Shown here piece after piece: positions 3,341 to 56,338 of a stretch of DNA of 64,000 nt. Below the pieces are notes generated by a model. It was not told where the DNA came from. It did no database searches and worked only from the letters and a program-made list of their open reading frames with translations. Within the stretch, counting starts at the first letter, position 1. Each line of letters opens with the position of its first letter. The translations under genes and the position numbers were made by a program. Source of the DNA: Bradyrhizobium diazoefficiens (lineage in GTDB: Bacteria; Pseudomonadota; Alphaproteobacteria; Rhizobiales; Xanthobacteraceae); contig NZ_JAFCJJ010000004.1 of assembly GCF_018131015.1 (NCBI RefSeq), positions 248,001-312,000 on the forward strand, written 5' to 3'.

Positions 3341-3361
3341 CAGTGCATGGGGTTGTTTTCG
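3341..3361 (+). repeat. 21-base dispersed element, copy 1
   Basis: CAGTGCATGGGGTTGTTTTC followed by G at 3341-3361 is identical to the reverse complement of 53177-53197. This copy lies about 140 bases upstream of the TctC-like gene. A 21-base exact match between unrelated intergenic regions is far above chance in 64 kb. Confidence 0.7.
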
Positions 3362-23624: not shown

Positions 23625-24458
23625 ATGAACCTGCTCGATCCCCAAGGTCCCGTGGCTGTCGCCAACAGCACCATCCTGGTCGATTCCGTTTTCATCATGC
23701 TCGCGATCGTGGTGCCGACCATTGTCGCGATCCTGGCCTTTGCGTTCTGGTTTCGCGCCTCGAATTCGAAGGCGCGCTTCCAGCCCGGCTTCGTCTATTC
23801 CGGCCGCGTCGAGATGGTGGTGTGGGCGATCCCCGCGCTCACCGTCATCCTGCTCGGCGGCGTCGCCTGGATCGGCTCGCACCAGCTCGATCCCGCAGCC
23901 CCCGTTCCCGGCACCGGCAGCCCGGTGCGGATCCAGGCCGTCTCGCTCGACTGGAAGTGGCTGTTCATCTATCCGGACCAGCGCATCGCCACCGTCAACG
24001 CGCTGACGGTGCCGGCCGGCGCGGAGCTGAACTTTCAGCTCACCTCGTCGAGCGTGATGAACACGTTCTTCATCCCGCAGCTCGGCAGCATGATCTACAC
24101 CATGAACGGCATGGTGACGAAGCTGAACCTGCGCGCCGACAATGAAGGCAAGTTGCAGGGCCTGTCGGCGCATTTCTCCGGCGACGGCTTTCCGGACATG
24201 ATGTTCGACGTCAACGTGATCTCGCCGCTCGCCTTTCCGGACTGGGTGACAGAAACGGCGAAGTCCGGTGCCGTGCTGAACGAGGACAGCTACAGGAAGC
24301 TGATGCAGCAGGGTGTCGAGAAGGGCAGGCCGGCCTGGCGACTGGAAGATCCGCGGCTGTTCGACCTGATCGCAACCCAGCACATTCCGCCCGGGCCGGG
24401 CCCGGAGCTGCTCTCCGATGCCGGCCGTCCGCACAGTGGAGCCCATGATGCTCGGTAA
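23625..24458 (+). CDS. cyoA: Ubiquinol oxidase (cytochrome bo type) subunit II
   Basis: From MNLLDPQGPVAVANSTILVD onward the product matches CyoA: two membrane helices (VFIMLAIVVPTIVAILAFAFWFR and VEMVVWAIPALTVILLGGVAWIG) and a periplasmic cupredoxin domain (SLDWKWLFIYPDQ, SVMNTFFIPQLGSMIYTM) without CuA ligands, as expected for a quinol oxidase. The N-terminus is odd. CyoA normally begins with a lipoprotein signal whose Cys lies just before the LLDPQG segment, but none is visible in frame, and the frame stays open to an ATG at 23490 with a charged, non-signal-like extension. The start is therefore uncertain, and an N-terminal frameshift is possible. The 3' end overlaps cyoB by 14 bases. Confidence 0.88.
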   Translation: MNLLDPQGPVAVANSTILVDSVFIMLAIVVPTIVAILAFAFWFRASNSKARFQPGFVYSGRVEMVVWAIPALTVILLGGVAWIGSHQLDPAAPVPGTGSPVRIQAVSLDWKWLFIYPDQRIATVNALTVPAGAELNFQLTSSSVMNTFFIPQLGSMIYTMNGMVTKLNLRADNEGKLQGLSAHFSGDGFPDMMFDVNVISPLAFPDWVTETAKSGAVLNEDSYRKLMQQGVEKGRPAWRLEDPRLFDLIATQHIPPGPGPELLSDAGRPHSGAHDAR

Positions 24459-26448
24459 GCTCGATTGGTCGGCCATCCCGTTCGACCAGCCCATACCTCT
24501 GATCGCGGGCGCGGTCGTGCTGGTGGGGATCCTCGGCGTGCTGGCGTGGGTCGTGCTGAGGGGACATCTGCCCTATCTCTGGGACGAATGGATCACCAGC
24601 GTCGATCACAAGCGGATCGGCGTCATGTACATCCTGCTTGCCTCGGTGATGCTGCTGCGCGGCGGCAGCGACGCGATCATGATGCGGATCCAGCAGGCCG
24701 TCGCCTACCAGTCGCAGGGCTACCTGCCGCCGGAGCACTACAACCAGATATTCTCGGCGCACGGCACCATCATGATCTTTTTCGTGGCGATGCCATTCGT
24801 GATCGGGCTGATGAATCTCGTCGTGCCGTTGCAGCTCGGCGTGCGCGACGTCGCGTTTCCCACCCTCAATTCGGTCGGCTTCTGGCTGACCGCGACCGGC
24901 GCGCTGCTGGTCAATATCTCGCTCGTGGTCGGCGAATTCGCGCGCACCGGCTGGCTGGCCTTCCCGCCGCTGTCGGAACTGTCCTACTCGCCCGGGGTCG
25001 GCGTCGATTATTATGCATGGTCGCTGCAGATCTCCGGCGTCGGCACGCTGGTGGCCGGCATCAACCTCGTCACCACGGTGCTGAAGCTGCGCACCAGGGG
25101 GATGAACTATCTGCGCATGCCGATGTTCTGCTGGACCACGCTCGCCTCCAACCTCCTGATCGTCGCGGCATTCCCGATCCTCACCGCGACGCTCGCGATG
25201 CTGCTGCTCGACCGCTATCTCGGCTTCCACTTCTTCACCAACGAGGCTGGCGGCAACGTCATGATGTTCATGAACCTGATCTGGGCCTGGGGACATCCGG
25301 AGGTCTACATCCTCGTGCTGCCGGCCTTCGGCATCTTTTCGGAGGTGGTCTCGACGTTTTCCGGCAAGGCCCTGTTCGGCTATCGCTCCATGGTGCTCGC
25401 GACGATGGCGATCTGCATCATCTCCTTCATGGTCTGGCTGCACCATTTCTTCACGATGGGCGCGGGCCCCGACGTCAACGCCATTTTCGGCATCGCCAGC
25501 ATGATCATCGCGGTGCCGACGGGGGTGAAGATCTACAACTGGCTGTTCACGATGTATGGCGGGCGCATCCGCTTCGCGACGCCGATGCTGTGGGCGGTCG
25601 GCTTCATGGTCACCTTCATTATCGGCGGATTGACGGGCGTCCTCGTCGCTGTGCCGCCGGCCGACTTCATGCTCCACAACAGCATGTTCCTGGTGGCGCA
25701 TTTCCACAACGTCATCATCGGCGGCGTGCTGTTCGGCGCCTTCGCCGGGTTCGAATACTGGTTTCCGAAGGCATTCGGCTTTCGCCTCGACGAGCGCTGG
25801 GGCAAGATGGCGTTCTGGTTCACCTTCCTTGGCTTTTACGTCACCTTCCTTCCGCTCTATGTCGCCGGCATGCTCGGCATGACGCGGCGTCTGCAGCACT
25901 ACGACGTTGCGGCGTGGCGGCCCTGGATGCTCGTGGCGGCCGTCGGCATGGCCGTGCTGACGATCGGGGTGATTTGCCAGATCACGCAGCTCGTCGTCAG
26001 CATCCGCAATCGCGAGGCGCTTCGCGACCGCACCGGCGATCCCTGGGACGGCCGCTCGCTGGAATGGGCGACATCGTCGCCGCCGCCGGTGTTCAATTTC
26101 GCATTCTCCCCAGACGTACGCGGCGAGGACGCCTATTGGGACATGAAGGCGCTTGCCCGGAAGCAATCGCTCGAACATGAAGGGCCAGAATATCACGACA
26201 TCGAGATGCCCAGGAACTCGCCGACCGGTTTCGTCTGCGCGTTCTTCGCCAGCATCATGGGCTTCGCGCTGATCTGGCATATCTGGTGGATGGTGATCCT
26301 GGGCGGCATCGGCGCGTTCGCGACCTTCGTCGTGTTCGCCTGGCGCGACCATGACGAATACGTCATTCCCGCCGCCGAGGTCGCCCGCATCGACGGCATC
26401 AACCTCGAGGAGCGGCGCAGCCTCGTCAGCATGGCGGGAGGGGTCTGA
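24445..26448 (+). CDS. cyoB: Ubiquinol oxidase (cytochrome bo type) subunit I
   Basis: A 667-residue haem-copper oxidase subunit with about 15 membrane helices. Ligand motifs are visible: FSAHGTIMIFF (low-spin haem), WAWGHPEVYILVLPAFGIFSE (CuB and the His-Tyr cross-link), WLHHFFTMG (CuB) and VAHFHNVIIGG (both haems). It reduces O2 to water with ubiquinol as donor and pumps protons. It overlaps cyoA at its 5' end, and its TGA shares a base with the ATG of cyoC. The length is standard for CyoB. Confidence 0.96.
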   Translation: MMLGKLDWSAIPFDQPIPLIAGAVVLVGILGVLAWVVLRGHLPYLWDEWITSVDHKRIGVMYILLASVMLLRGGSDAIMMRIQQAVAYQSQGYLPPEHYNQIFSAHGTIMIFFVAMPFVIGLMNLVVPLQLGVRDVAFPTLNSVGFWLTATGALLVNISLVVGEFARTGWLAFPPLSELSYSPGVGVDYYAWSLQISGVGTLVAGINLVTTVLKLRTRGMNYLRMPMFCWTTLASNLLIVAAFPILTATLAMLLLDRYLGFHFFTNEAGGNVMMFMNLIWAWGHPEVYILVLPAFGIFSEVVSTFSGKALFGYRSMVLATMAICIISFMVWLHHFFTMGAGPDVNAIFGIASMIIAVPTGVKIYNWLFTMYGGRIRFATPMLWAVGFMVTFIIGGLTGVLVAVPPADFMLHNSMFLVAHFHNVIIGGVLFGAFAGFEYWFPKAFGFRLDERWGKMAFWFTFLGFYVTFLPLYVAGMLGMTRRLQHYDVAAWRPWMLVAAVGMAVLTIGVICQITQLVVSIRNREALRDRTGDPWDGRSLEWATSSPPPVFNFAFSPDVRGEDAYWDMKALARKQSLEHEGPEYHDIEMPRNSPTGFVCAFFASIMGFALIWHIWWMVILGGIGAFATFVVFAWRDHDEYVIPAAEVARIDGINLEERRSLVSMAGGV

Positions 26449-52073: not shown

Positions 52074-53171
52074 ATGCATATCGTCGTTTTGCCGGGGGAC
52101 GGGATCGGACCGGAGATCACGGCCGCGACATCGGGTGTGCTGCGCGCGGCCTCCGAGCGCTTCCAGCTCGACCTGCGGCTGGAGGAGCATGCGGTCGGGC
52201 ATGCCAGCCTGCAGCAGTTCGGCACGACGGTGCGCCCCGAATTGCTCGATGTCGTCCGCGCCGCCGACGGTCTGATCCTGGGGCCGACCGCGACCTTCGA
52301 CTTCAAGGACGAGGCGCATGGCGAGATCAATCCGTCGCGGCACTTCCGCAAGAGCCTCGAGCTCTACGCCAATGTCAGGCCGGCGCGCACCTATGCGGGG
52401 CGGCCCGGCCGGTGCGGGGATTTCGACCTCGTGGTGGTGCGCGAGAACACCGAAGGGTTTTATGCCGACCGCAACATGGAGCAGGGCAATGGCGAGCTGC
52501 TGGTCACGCCTGACGTCGTGATCTCGCTGCGCCGGATCACGCGCCTGTGCTGCGAGCGCATCGCGCACGCCGCCTGCCGGCTGGCGATGAAGCGGCGCAG
52601 CCATCTGACCATCGTGCACAAGGCCAACGTGCTCAAGATCGGCGACGGCATGTTCCTCGATTCCTGCCGGGAGGCGGCGAAGGCCTATCCGGGCCTTGCC
52701 GTGGACGACATCCTGGTCGACGCCATGATGGCGCATGTCGTGCGCAGCCCGGATCGCTTCGACGTGATCGTCGCCACCAACATGTTCGGCGACATCCTGT
52801 CCGATCTCACCGCCGAACTGTCCGGCAGCCTCGGTCTTGGCGGCTCGCTCAACGTCGGCGACCGCCATGCCATGGCGCAGGCGGCGCACGGCTCGGCGCC
52901 CGACATCGCCGGGCAGGACGTCGCCAATCCGGTCTCGCTGATCCTGTCTGCGGCCCTGCTGCTCGCCTGGCACGGCGAGACCAGACGCGCCGGCCGCTAT
53001 GCGGAAGCGGGACGCGCGATCGAGGCCGCGGTGGCGAAAGCGCTTCGCGAGGGCAGGGCGACGCGCGATGTCGGCGGCCCGCTCGGAACCCTCGCGGCGG
53101 GCGCCGCTATCGCCGCGATGGTGCAGGCGGATTGCCCTTCGGTTCTGGGCTTTTTCAAGCTTCAAACATAA
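52074..53171 (+). CDS. Isocitrate/isopropylmalate dehydrogenase family protein
   Basis: A 365-residue beta-decarboxylating dehydrogenase. The N-terminal MHIVVLPGDGIGPEI, the substrate region VVVRENTEGFYADRN near residues 121-135, the Lys-containing IVHKANVLKIGDGMF and the metal-binding NMFGDILSDLTAELSGSLGL near 235-254 are all present. ENTEGFY rather than ENTEGEY or RELTGG suggests a substrate other than isocitrate or 3-isopropylmalate, for example tartrate or another hydroxy-diacid. The ATG is preceded by GGGGGATC. A hairpin terminator follows. Confidence 0.92.
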   Translation: MHIVVLPGDGIGPEITAATSGVLRAASERFQLDLRLEEHAVGHASLQQFGTTVRPELLDVVRAADGLILGPTATFDFKDEAHGEINPSRHFRKSLELYANVRPARTYAGRPGRCGDFDLVVVRENTEGFYADRNMEQGNGELLVTPDVVISLRRITRLCCERIAHAACRLAMKRRSHLTIVHKANVLKIGDGMFLDSCREAAKAYPGLAVDDILVDAMMAHVVRSPDRFDVIVATNMFGDILSDLTAELSGSLGLGGSLNVGDRHAMAQAAHGSAPDIAGQDVANPVSLILSAALLLAWHGETRRAGRYAEAGRAIEAAVAKALREGRATRDVGGPLGTLAAGAAIAAMVQADCPSVLGFFKLQT

Positions 53172-53176
53172 AAAGC

Positions 53177-53197
53177 CGAAAACAACCCCATGCACTG
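53177..53197 (-). repeat. 21-base dispersed element, copy 2
   Basis: Exact reverse complement of 3341-3361. This copy begins six bases after the dehydrogenase stop codon and lies just before a hairpin terminator. Confidence 0.7.
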
Positions 53198-53200
53198 ATG

Positions 53201-53227
53201 AAAGCCCCTTGATCGATAAGGGCTTTT
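53201..53227 (+). terminator. Rho-independent-like terminator
   Basis: AAAGCCC and GGGCTTT form a 7-bp stem, with TT/AA pairs possible next to a bulged C, around a GATCGAT loop. A short T-run (TTTT) overlaps the end of the stem. It closes the dehydrogenase transcript. Confidence 0.6.
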
Positions 53228-53269
53228 CGAGCCGCGCCACGACGGCCGCGCGGGCCGGGAGCGTGTTGA

Positions 53270-53283
53270 TTGATTTATCTCAA
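53270..53283 (+). promoter_or_regulatory. FixK/FNR-type box
   Basis: TTGATTTATCTCAA fits the rhizobial FixK consensus TTGA-N6-TCAA exactly. Its centre lies 59 bases before the ATG of the 26-residue ORF, compatible with class II activation and a leader of about 18 bases. It implies induction under low oxygen by FixK2 or a related CRP/FNR protein. Confidence 0.65.
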
Positions 53284-53335
53284 AAAGCGCACGGAAGCGC
53301 GGGGCAACCTGTCCTTATGACGAGGAGCCAGGGCA

Positions 53336-53416
53336 ATGCGGCCGTGGATGATGCATGCGCTGACGTGGACGCTGACCGGGATCGGCCTGCTCGTCGTCCT
53401 TTCCATGCTGCTGTGA
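53336..53416 (+). CDS. 26-residue membrane miniprotein
   Basis: A short frame from ATG 53336 to TGA 53416 with sequence MRPWMMHALTWTLTGIGLLV followed by VLSMLL. GAGGAG lies eight bases before the ATG, an ideal ribosome-binding site. A single hydrophobic helix occupies about residues 8-26, after a short N-terminus with one Arg. A perfect FixK-type box stands upstream and a terminator separates it from the previous gene, so it has its own control. Size and topology recall oxidase-associated miniproteins such as CydX, but there is no sequence match I can name. The function is unknown. Confidence 0.6.
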   Translation: MRPWMMHALTWTLTGIGLLVVLSMLL

Positions 53417-53696
53417 GCTGCCTCGCTTCACCGCCGCAACGCGCCCCGATCCGCTGCCGTCAGGACGTCCCGGTGTTGCGTTGAGCCGACACCTGGGCGG
53501 TGGTCGCGATGATCAGTCGAGTGCCCGGCGTCATGTCAGCGACCGATCCTGGTGGGGCAGGGCACCACGCGGATCTTGGCCATCATGCCTCATCCTCGTG
53601 TTCGAGCTCGGCATCATGTCGTGCCGCGCGGCGCATGGAACAAGCCGTGCTGTTCAATCGTTTGAGGGGGAGCGGATGTGACGCAAGGAATAGCCC

Positions 53697-53936
53697 ATGT
53701 GGACACGGGTGCAGATCGCGTCGATGGTATTCATGATGCTTCAGCCCATTCTGTTTGGCATCGGAATGGTCCTCATTTTGACGACGCCACTCAATCAACA
53801 TGCGATGATGCTTATCCCGTGGATGATTGCGGCCACTTTTTTCGTTTCCGCGCCTCTGGCCTGGTTGCTCGCGCCTCGGCTGCAAATGCGCTACTGGCGC
53901 CAGCGGCACACGAACGGTGATTTCATTTCAGGTTAG
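53697..53936 (+). CDS. Small membrane protein with two helices
   Basis: A 79-residue protein with two strong hydrophobic segments, VQIASMVFMMLQPILFGIGMVLIL and MLIPWMIAATFFVSAPLAWLLAP, followed by a basic tail RLQMRYWRQRH. AAGGAAT about eight bases before the ATG supports the start. I recall similar short two-helix proteins in Bradyrhizobium, without known function. It lies 280 bases after the miniprotein; the spacer holds no other convincing frame. Confidence 0.65.
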   Translation: MWTRVQIASMVFMMLQPILFGIGMVLILTTPLNQHAMMLIPWMIAATFFVSAPLAWLLAPRLQMRYWRQRHTNGDFISG

Positions 53937-54846: not shown

Positions 54847-56196
54847 TCAGGCCTTCCCGGCGTTCCGCGGGGCCGCCGCTGCAGGCAGCACATTGTCCCG
54901 CGCGGTGATGGCGCGGCGAACGAGGCCAATGTGCTCGCGGAGCGTATAGGCCTCGCTCGCGAAGCCGGTGGGCGTATGGATCCTGGCAACGGCTTCCTCG
55001 ATCCGCGCGAGGTCGGCGAGCCAGGTGTCGATCGGAAGCTTGCCGGTGCGCGCGGCGACATCCCGCTCGAGCAAGGCGAGTTCGCCATACCATCTGAAGA
55101 TGCGCGAGCGGACATGCCAGCGGACCAGCTGGGGCAGGTAATGGAACAGCGGGAAAAGAATTGCCGCCAGCGGCAGCAGGATGATGGCGGCGCGCTCGGC
55201 CAGGGCCGCAATCCAGAACGGCAGGTACTGGTAGAGGAAGGTTCGTCCGAACCGCCGGTGCTGGTCGGCGTCGGCCGAGACCGGGAGGTCGACCTGGGTG
55301 GTGCCGGGAAATTCACCGGCGTCCTCGAACAGGCCCTGCCTGCCGTGGATCTCCCGGGCGGCGTCCACCAGCAAATGGACGAGGGCGGGGTGAAGGCCTC
55401 TGCGGGCCGCCAGCATCTCCTTGGTGCCGATCAGCTCCACTTCCTTTTCCGGAATATTGTCCGCGAGGTCGATCACGCCGGACGGCAATTTCAGCGTGCT
55501 GATGAAGTTGAGCCGGCGGCGATAGGCATCAGCCCTCGCGAAGTTGAAGAGACTGAGCTTCGGGTCGCGTAGCGCGTTCCAGACCGCGGGATTGTCCGCG
55601 CCGTCGACGAAGATTGCGGCGTCAACATCGCCCCCGCGTAGCGCAACCAGGGCCGCAAGGTTGCTCAACGGCTGCATGTTGACGTTGTCGGGCGAGAGCC
55701 CGTTGAGTGCGAACACGGATTCGCTCAGCGACCGCGCGCCGCTGCCGGAAGCCCCGACGGCAACCCTGCGATCGCGCAATTCGTTGACATAGTTCAGCGG
55801 CTCGGTCTTGCGGTAGAAAATCCATAACGGGACATAATAGAGGCTCGCGAGCATGACGACGTTGTCCGCGTCGGAGGCCTGCACGATGCCGCCCTGCGTG
55901 AAGCCGATGTCGACGCCCGAGTTCGGATCCTGCAGCAGCTTGAGATTGTCGCCCGGGCCGTTGGTGATGCGCTCTTCGACCGTCACGCCCGAGCGGGCCA
56001 GGATTTCGATGTAGCGCCTGGCGTGCTGGTGCAGCAGGCCGTCTTCCAGGCCGGAGGCCAGAACGATGTGGCGTGATGGGGCGGTCTGCCACACATACGC
56101 CACGGCCCAGATCGTCGCGGCCGTCAAGACGAGGACCACCGTCGCCAGGATCAGGCGGGCGCGAGACGAGAGCAAAGAGAGGTTTTCGATCTTCAC
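54847..56196 (-). CDS. TAXI family TRAP-type solute-binding protein, membrane-anchored at both ends
   Basis: A 449-residue protein. An N-terminal helix (LILATVVLVLTAATIWAVAYVW) is followed by a TAXI receptor domain: IVLASGLEDGLLHQHARRYIEILARSGV, FTQGGIVQASDADNVVMLASLYYVPLWIFYR and RVAVGASGSGARSLSESVFALNG. Beyond about residue 325 it continues with a hydrophobic stretch (AAIILLPLAAILFPLFHYLPQLVRW) and a cytoplasmic-looking helical tail of roughly 90 residues. Typical TAXI receptors end after the binding domain, about 320 residues. No TRAP membrane gene is adjacent. So it may act as a sensor rather than a transporter component. Confidence 0.85.
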   Translation of the reverse strand: MKIENLSLLSSRARLILATVVLVLTAATIWAVAYVWQTAPSRHIVLASGLEDGLLHQHARRYIEILARSGVTVEERITNGPGDNLKLLQDPNSGVDIGFTQGGIVQASDADNVVMLASLYYVPLWIFYRKTEPLNYVNELRDRRVAVGASGSGARSLSESVFALNGLSPDNVNMQPLSNLAALVALRGGDVDAAIFVDGADNPAVWNALRDPKLSLFNFARADAYRRRLNFISTLKLPSGVIDLADNIPEKEVELIGTKEMLAARRGLHPALVHLLVDAAREIHGRQGLFEDAGEFPGTTQVDLPVSADADQHRRFGRTFLYQYLPFWIAALAERAAIILLPLAAILFPLFHYLPQLVRWHVRSRIFRWYGELALLERDVAARTGKLPIDTWLADLARIEEAVARIHTPTGFASEAYTLREHIGLVRRAITARDNVLPAAAAPRNAGKA

Positions 56197-56338
56197 GAGA
56201 GGTGCTGTTCTTCGACGCGCGGCGGGAGCCCATCGTTCTTATTCGAGCACCAAAATCATCTTCGCGCGAGTCCGATTGATCCAGATCAACGGTTCGGCTC
56301 TGCCTGCCGGCCGCCAGGCCAACCGCCGAAGCCGGTTG

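Follow-up and report, generated by a model that had tools for sequence, protein, structure and literature searches.

A gene of only 26 codons, ORF2, lies behind a FixK/FNR-type operator in a 64,000-nucleotide stretch of Bradyrhizobium diazoefficiens DNA (the window). Judged by comparison with its relatives, ORF2 is a real gene under purifying selection in its own frame, and the existence of this gene together with its FixK/FNR-type promoter is well supported. The best explanation, in which ORF2 would represent a newly recognised family of single-pass stress microproteins under FixK/FNR-type regulation, is given an even chance; a mechanism like that of Escherichia coli YohP, chosen among open rivals, is given slightly less. 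Rhizobial oxygen-controlled genes are usually listed from annotated genomes, and a 26-codon gene would tend to be missed in this way. ORF2 forms a conserved family with a partner family, ORF1, in 45 of 265 Bradyrhizobium genomes. Single-helix stress microproteins are already known as a kind. The ORF2 family itself, its multiplicity within the genus and the overlap of the ORF1 stop with the operator were not found in NCBIfam, Pfam or the searched literature, which comprised titles and the beginnings of abstracts, with subscription papers and supplements largely outside.

The initial annotation had described a perfect TTGA-N6-TCAA box, a Shine-Dalgarno sequence at a spacing of 8 and a 26-codon frame with one hydrophobic helix, and all three are confirmed in that order at 53270-53416 (Table 1). 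Its upstream terminator holds in part: the inverted repeat and its run of four T are visible by eye behind a gene of the isocitrate/isopropylmalate dehydrogenase family, but a terminator scan that required five T in eight made no call there. ORF2 has a single possible start in the window because an in-frame TGA lies 18 nt before the ATG. The predicted protein reaches a best 19-residue Kyte-Doolittle mean of 2.03 and, with 26 residues (fewer than 50) and one predicted membrane helix, has the size and shape of both CydX-like and YohP-like proteins. ORF1 is missing at this locus, where ORF2 stands without a second microprotein, and a profile search found one ORF2 match only in the genome.

Table 1. 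Features of the ORF2 locus in the window
Feature	Position	Strand	Basis
Inverted repeat AAAGCCC/GGGCTTT with T4, likely terminator of the upstream gene	53201..53227	+	Read by eye
FixK/FNR-type operator TTGATTTATCTCAA	53270..53283	+	Sequence; matches family consensus and published FixK2 consensus
CAACCT, window copy of the TTnCCT block, putative -10 of a class II promoter	53305..53310	+	Role inferred from spacing
Shine-Dalgarno GAGGAG, 8-nt spacer	53322..53327	+	Sequence
ORF2, 26-residue single-helix miniprotein MRPWMMHALTWTLTGIGLLVVLSMLL, ATG...TGA	53336..53416	+	Sequence, family profile, selection

Two further elements of the window were recorded. The sequence AAAACAACCCCATGCAC occurs twice (53179-53195 and 3343-3359), and a DNA search found the stretch of about 50-65 bases that starts at 53180 repeated in most of 89 matching genomes, as a dispersed intergenic element; it is not visibly the Br-REP1 or Br-REP2 consensus in the form printed in the accessible part of the source (PMC5082802). 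The minus strand at 27478-27550 matches the suhB/mmgR small RNA of Rfam (RF00519).

The window contains two perfect TTGA-N6-TCAA sites, of which the operator is one. The other, TTGATCCAGATCAA at 56276-56289, precedes an NMT1/TAXI-like binding-protein gene (54847-56196, minus strand) by about 80 nt, and an NMT1_3 gene also adjoins the ORF2 copy at locus L062. The motif is in use in the window genome, which holds 141 such boxes as compared with 17 for the reversed pattern; the chance of meeting one is about 0.001 per given 60-nt stretch. A single pairing of box and ORF could still be chance, and the pair is therefore convincing from its relatives, where the same arrangement recurs. A consensus FixK2 box precedes the ORF2 anchor by 61-91 nt in 36 of 40 fetched loci, with the strict TTGA-N6-TCAA form in 35 and TTGA-N6-GCAA at L066; the four loci with no consensus box before ORF2 are L037, L051, L060 and L063. 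L037 and L063 were kept in this count and left out of the codon and anchored-profile analyses, while L051 and L060 were excluded from the box-anchored consensus.

That consensus, TTGATCTAnCTCAA, was built from 28 non-redundant family loci, seven of which come from one syntenic lineage, so that its conservation partly reflects shared descent. It contains a second conserved block, TTnCCT, at a fixed spacing of +35 to +40 from the box start, with C at +38 in 23 of the 28 and T at +40 in 20 (the top-scoring positions outside the box), and a weaker GCGC-like block at +17 to +20. The centre of TTnCCT is 31 nt from that of the box. Class II FixK/FNR promoters carry their box at -41.5, which would place the centre of TTnCCT near -10.5. 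The block is thus a putative -10 element of a class II promoter, and transcription in the window is predicted to start near 53318.

The published FixK2 consensus is TTGA/C-N6-T/GCAA, and boxes of tabulated targets stand at, e.g., -66, -69 and -72 in the portion of the study available (PMC9104804). NnrR is presumed to recognise a site much like it, according to the accessible text of another report (PMC6710368). Several Crp/Fnr paralogues probably bind boxes of this kind, and FixK2 may therefore not be the regulator of ORF2. Microoxic induction of ORF2 is plausible.

A leader hairpin that sequesters the Shine-Dalgarno sequence is not a feature of the family (39 leaders, mean z -0.5, mean Shine-Dalgarno pairing 0.59). 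Such a hairpin is clearest in one clade (CCTCCC/GGGAGG), but the predicted transcription start there lies downstream of one of its arms, and the candidate was rejected; a few other leaders also have high Shine-Dalgarno pairing. Terminators behind ORF2 were called at three of 39 loci against 2.8 expected from mononucleotide shuffles, which gives no support for a conserved terminator.

As far as sampled, the ORF2 family is restricted to the genus, multi-copy and accessory. A DNA query (53180-53440) gave separate matches in other genomes to the ORF part, or to the box plus the start. The 26-residue protein matched in 39 of 190 genomes of the genus at E up to 0.5, a threshold whose weak end includes chance matches within long frames. 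A 31-row profile gave 76 matches in the 45 carriers (E up to 0.01, the weakest few uncertain), with a maximum of five per genome; carriers by name include B. manausense, B. liaoningense, B. iriomotense and B. zhengyangense. Family members are 26-33 residues long and share the consensus MRPWxLHxLxWGLAAIGLxAIxSMxL, in which W4, L9, W11, L18 and S23 are conserved in at least 90% of the 31 rows and the conservation score of H7 nearly equals that of the tryptophans. No significant clustering of conserved residues on one face of the helix was found for ORF2 (permutation p = 0.20) or for ORF1 (p = 0.09).

No convincing ORF2 was found outside the genus in samples of 296 genomes from the family and 279 from the order, where matches had E values of 0.005 or worse; all but one of them fall within frames of at least 265 residues, and they were dismissed as chance. 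PLSDB plasmids gave no match to two family members used as queries. One ORF2 relative (L137) is found in a 31-kb IMG/VR contig classed as viral. ORF2 belongs to no known family of NCBIfam. Among the 31 members, Pfam at E up to 10 returned four scattered weak matches (best E 0.058). A comparison with the PDB gave weak, partial matches to FtsZ and to subunits of photosystem I (best E 0.44), which were taken as chance.

The strongest argument for a protein-coding gene is selection. In 27 non-redundant loci, pN/pS is 0.52 in the ORF2 frame (codon bootstrap 0.39-0.67) as compared with 0.92 (0.65-1.30) and 1.30 (0.97-1.88) in the other two. Across 37 aligned copies the ORF2 frame has no internal stop. 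Openness of the frame proves nothing alone, however, because frame +2 is equally stop-free (37 of 37), whereas frame +1 contains stops in all but one of the 37 copies; it is selection that carries the argument. Stops or frameshifts in relatives had been named as what would speak against the gene. The outcome mostly favours the gene, with the majority of the fetched copies undamaged. Exceptions are L032, in which a frameshift follows residue 11, and probably L075, which lacks a box and no longer resembles the family beyond residue 19; at L187 and L193, which have the box, only remains of ORF2 stand behind ORF1. L047-L049 (DNA matches of another kind), L074 (unlike the family) and L075 were excluded before all counts; L032 was left out of the codon counts for its frameshift, and L070 is also missing from the codon and stop counts as its anchor was missed. 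The absence of ORF2 from most of the genus and the damaged copies of both ORF2 and ORF1 argue against an important role.

The same data bear on the idea that what the box controls is a small RNA, or a leader belonging to the following gene, with ORF2 incidental or merely regulatory. Promoter parts would be conserved irrespective of the product, and in one lineage the distance from the ORF2 anchor to the start of a small P-loop kinase gene downstream is only 136-151 nt at five loci. Frame-specific purifying selection on ORF2 and the presence of different downstream genes in other lineages make this reading very unlikely.

A second microprotein often accompanies ORF2. ORF1 is a predicted membrane protein of 29 residues (consensus MGxELxxRVxAIxAGxFTVAAVxALxFxx) that precedes ORF2 in 43 of 76 copies at a start-to-start distance of 147-226 nt, matches weaker than about E 6e-4 not being used in the pairing. 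It is found at 23 of 39 fetched loci. At 22 of them, L066 being the exception, the ORF1 stop codon coincides with the TGA of the box TTGA and follows the T that the box requires. ORF1 too is under purifying selection, with a pN/pS of 0.48 in frame versus 1.19 in both other frames (17 copies; L038, L065 and L069 left out). One copy (L044) is damaged. NCBIfam gave two weak matches, each to one of 22 members: the PA3371 family (E 0.054) and a lipoprotein signal domain (E 0.78). In the order sample (199 genomes), ORF1 matches outside the genus had E values of 0.01 or worse and were taken as chance.

ORF1 has a conserved upstream element of its own, TGGCACAAACTGCAYA. Its exact form occurs at five places in 11 genomes versus none for the pattern read backwards; the loose pattern TGGCACNNNYTGCAYA, with 28 places versus 18 reversed in eight genomes, shows no clear enrichment. 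The element was considered as a sigma-54 promoter; measured against the sigma-54 consensus, its GG-GC spacing is two bases too short, and this assignment fails. Among 13 sites found by searching for the element, ORF1 stands alone, without ORF2, at L159 and L170. A profile search for ORF1 (E up to 0.01) gave matches in 84 of 265 genomes, the weak end being uncertain. Twenty further ORF1 loci were fetched, and most of them carry the element, exactly or in a similar form, and lack ORF2. The form TGGCACAAACTGCACA, or one close to it, lies upstream of the ORF1-only loci L159, L170, L178-L186, L188, L190 and L195; at L183 and L195, TAAAAT stands seven bases before the ORF1 ATG, an arrangement that would suit a leaderless mRNA. 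The element is also present at sites without ORF1.

Taken together, ORF1 and ORF2 could form a two-helix membrane device that responds to two different signals, in which ORF1 is expressed through its TGGCACAAACTGCAYA element and ORF2 through the FixK operator that overlaps the ORF1 stop. Low oxygen would then shift the ratio of two interacting microproteins in a Bradyrhizobium-specific state of energy saving or damage survival, a proposal that we regard as rather unlikely. The lack of ORF1 in the window also raises the question of whether ORF2, though transcribed from its box, is a non-functional relic there: its partner is lost, the stretch is gene-poor and the genome has a single ORF2 match. 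The box, the Shine-Dalgarno sequence, the start and the best-kept residues are all intact in the window copy, however, and ORF1 is absent just upstream in 33 of the 76 ORF2 copies, the window's included, among them six fetched copies of the TWMMHLLAWAI lineage. A relic is thus unlikely.

The genes around 39 family loci were compared with those in 40 stretches of 8.08 kb, chosen arbitrarily in 11 carrier genomes. ATP-dependent DNA ligase homologues are found at 12 of the loci and Crp/Fnr regulators at six, versus none of the control stretches for either; receiver-domain proteins occur at five loci versus one control. Extra FixK-type boxes number 23 versus four, and the G+C of family regions is 0.606 versus 0.632. 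Nine of the 39 loci are largely syntenic and the others scattered, so the neighbourhood and promoter counts are not fully independent. This lineage carries a Rieske/ferredoxin-reductase type gene, a DUF308 gene and a small P-loop kinase or LMW phosphatase, and it accounts for eight of the 23 extra boxes and for none of the ligases or regulators. Between non-syntenic lineages the downstream genes differ, and the ligases and Crp/Fnr regulators are neighbours of ORF2, not operon partners. ExxSR in the recognition helix marks FNR/FixK-type specificity; three of the six neighbouring regulators, within 4 kb of ORF2, have ETVSR there and the other three lack ExxSR. Hsp20 genes lie 2-3 kb from L032 and L053. 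Many ORF2 copies are located in accessory stress regions, where ATP-dependent DNA ligase and Crp/Fnr regulator genes are found nearby.

The initial annotation had entertained a symbiotic role; ORF2 is not tied to nodules. The best nifH-like matches in the window genome reach only E 4e-5, and 10 of the 45 carriers have no match below E 1e-100. Carriers are somewhat richer in nifH (35 of 45 pass this cut-off, as do 158 of all 265 genomes), but a nodule setting is not required for ORF2.

Multiplicity and patchiness could also be explained if ORF2 and ORF1 were membrane toxins resembling those of type I toxin-antitoxin systems, or peptides of a selfish module. ORF2 is a short hydrophobic helix, multi-copy and found in accessory regions; four diverged copies (L059-L062) lie on the 441-kb second replicon of genome G129, one match comes from the viral contig, and the Shine-Dalgarno sequence is paired in predicted leader hairpins of several copies. 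Against this, leader structure is not general, and a scan of both strands of 53100-53750, limited to sigma-70-like promoters, found none for an antisense RNA. To our knowledge, a conserved oxygen-regulator promoter and conserved Trp and His residues would be unusual for type I toxins, and a toxin or selfish peptide seems improbable. The same G129 replicon (contig C2) also holds L187, has transposase genes near two of its ORF2 copies and has DNA ligase homologues near three.

The initial annotation had suggested that ORF2 could be an accessory of an oxidase or of the membrane, by analogy with CydX-like proteins that stabilise terminal oxidases. If ORF2 served an oxidase or other respiratory complex as a small subunit or assembly factor, encoded apart from its partner, this would suit the FixK-type control and the small size. 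The conserved W4, H7 and W11 suggest a specific protein contact, and the window has a haem-copper oxidase subunit I gene with a GHPEVY motif (24418-26448), about 27 kb upstream of ORF2. Motifs that we take to mark CydA (GRQPW), CcoN and subunit I were scanned in 43 sources, the CydA and CcoN scans without a positive control, and the sole match was the window's own subunit I. No oxidase appears among the Pfam families of 40 neighbour proteins, nor among the 25 commonest of 66 families in 104 further neighbours. The CydX family PF08173 is matched in none of eight carrier genomes, the window's included, while E. coli and Caulobacter controls were positive; neither PF08173 nor DUF2474 is among the Pfam matches of the 31 ORF2 members (E up to 10, HMMER filters on). 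A patchy presence in 45 of 265 genomes, with up to five copies each, is also unlike that of a core oxidase. What stands of the earlier interpretation is the conserved membrane miniprotein gene with its FixK/FNR-type promoter; the oxidase role is unsupported, with no oxidase beside the copies checked, and is rather improbable.

A low-oxygen stress microprotein fits better than an oxidase subunit because of the FixK-type control, the stress neighbours and the patchy multi-copy presence. On this preferred reading, a stand-alone gene would encode a single-pass inner-membrane microprotein, and a FixK/FNR-type regulator would turn it on at low oxygen from a class II promoter with a -10 block and a short leader carrying the Shine-Dalgarno sequence. 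ORF2 might then insert as a lone helix, N-terminus in, as YohP does in E. coli, and during oxygen shortage could adjust the membrane or a membrane protein towards a low-energy, protected state. The conserved Trp and His residues near its N-terminus may serve as the contact. In many strains ORF1, a separately controlled 29-residue helix from the same spot, may be a partner.

Several known systems resemble this one in part. In the FixK2 regulon of B. diazoefficiens, the consensus is one that the ORF2 box fits, at a similar distance; the regulon table lists annotated genes, with no 26-codon gene like ORF2 in its accessible rows (PMC9104804). CydX, CydY and CydZ of cytochrome bd oxidase are likewise small single-helix proteins, there of an oxygen-using complex, and CydZ is reported, in the available part of its description, to have a Trp at the helix start, as ORF2 does (PMC4325964). 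These proteins are encoded in cydAB operons, whereas no cydAB was seen beside the checked ORF2 loci and the CydX profile found no match; membership of ORF2 in CydX fails on both profile and operon. YohP of E. coli has 27 residues to the 26 of ORF2, is likewise a single helix, is raised under oxygen limitation and lowers the membrane potential, as stated in the accessible portion of its study (PMC12719787). ORF2 differs in its conserved W4, H7 and W11 and in its frequent ORF1 neighbour, and that same portion makes no mention of FNR control for YohP (PMC12719787). The likeness would be one of working, not of homology. In size, condition and lone-helix form YohP is the closest precedent, and if ORF2 does act like it, the family would offer an example of a microprotein that is connected to an oxygen regulator and tunes the energy state of the membrane.
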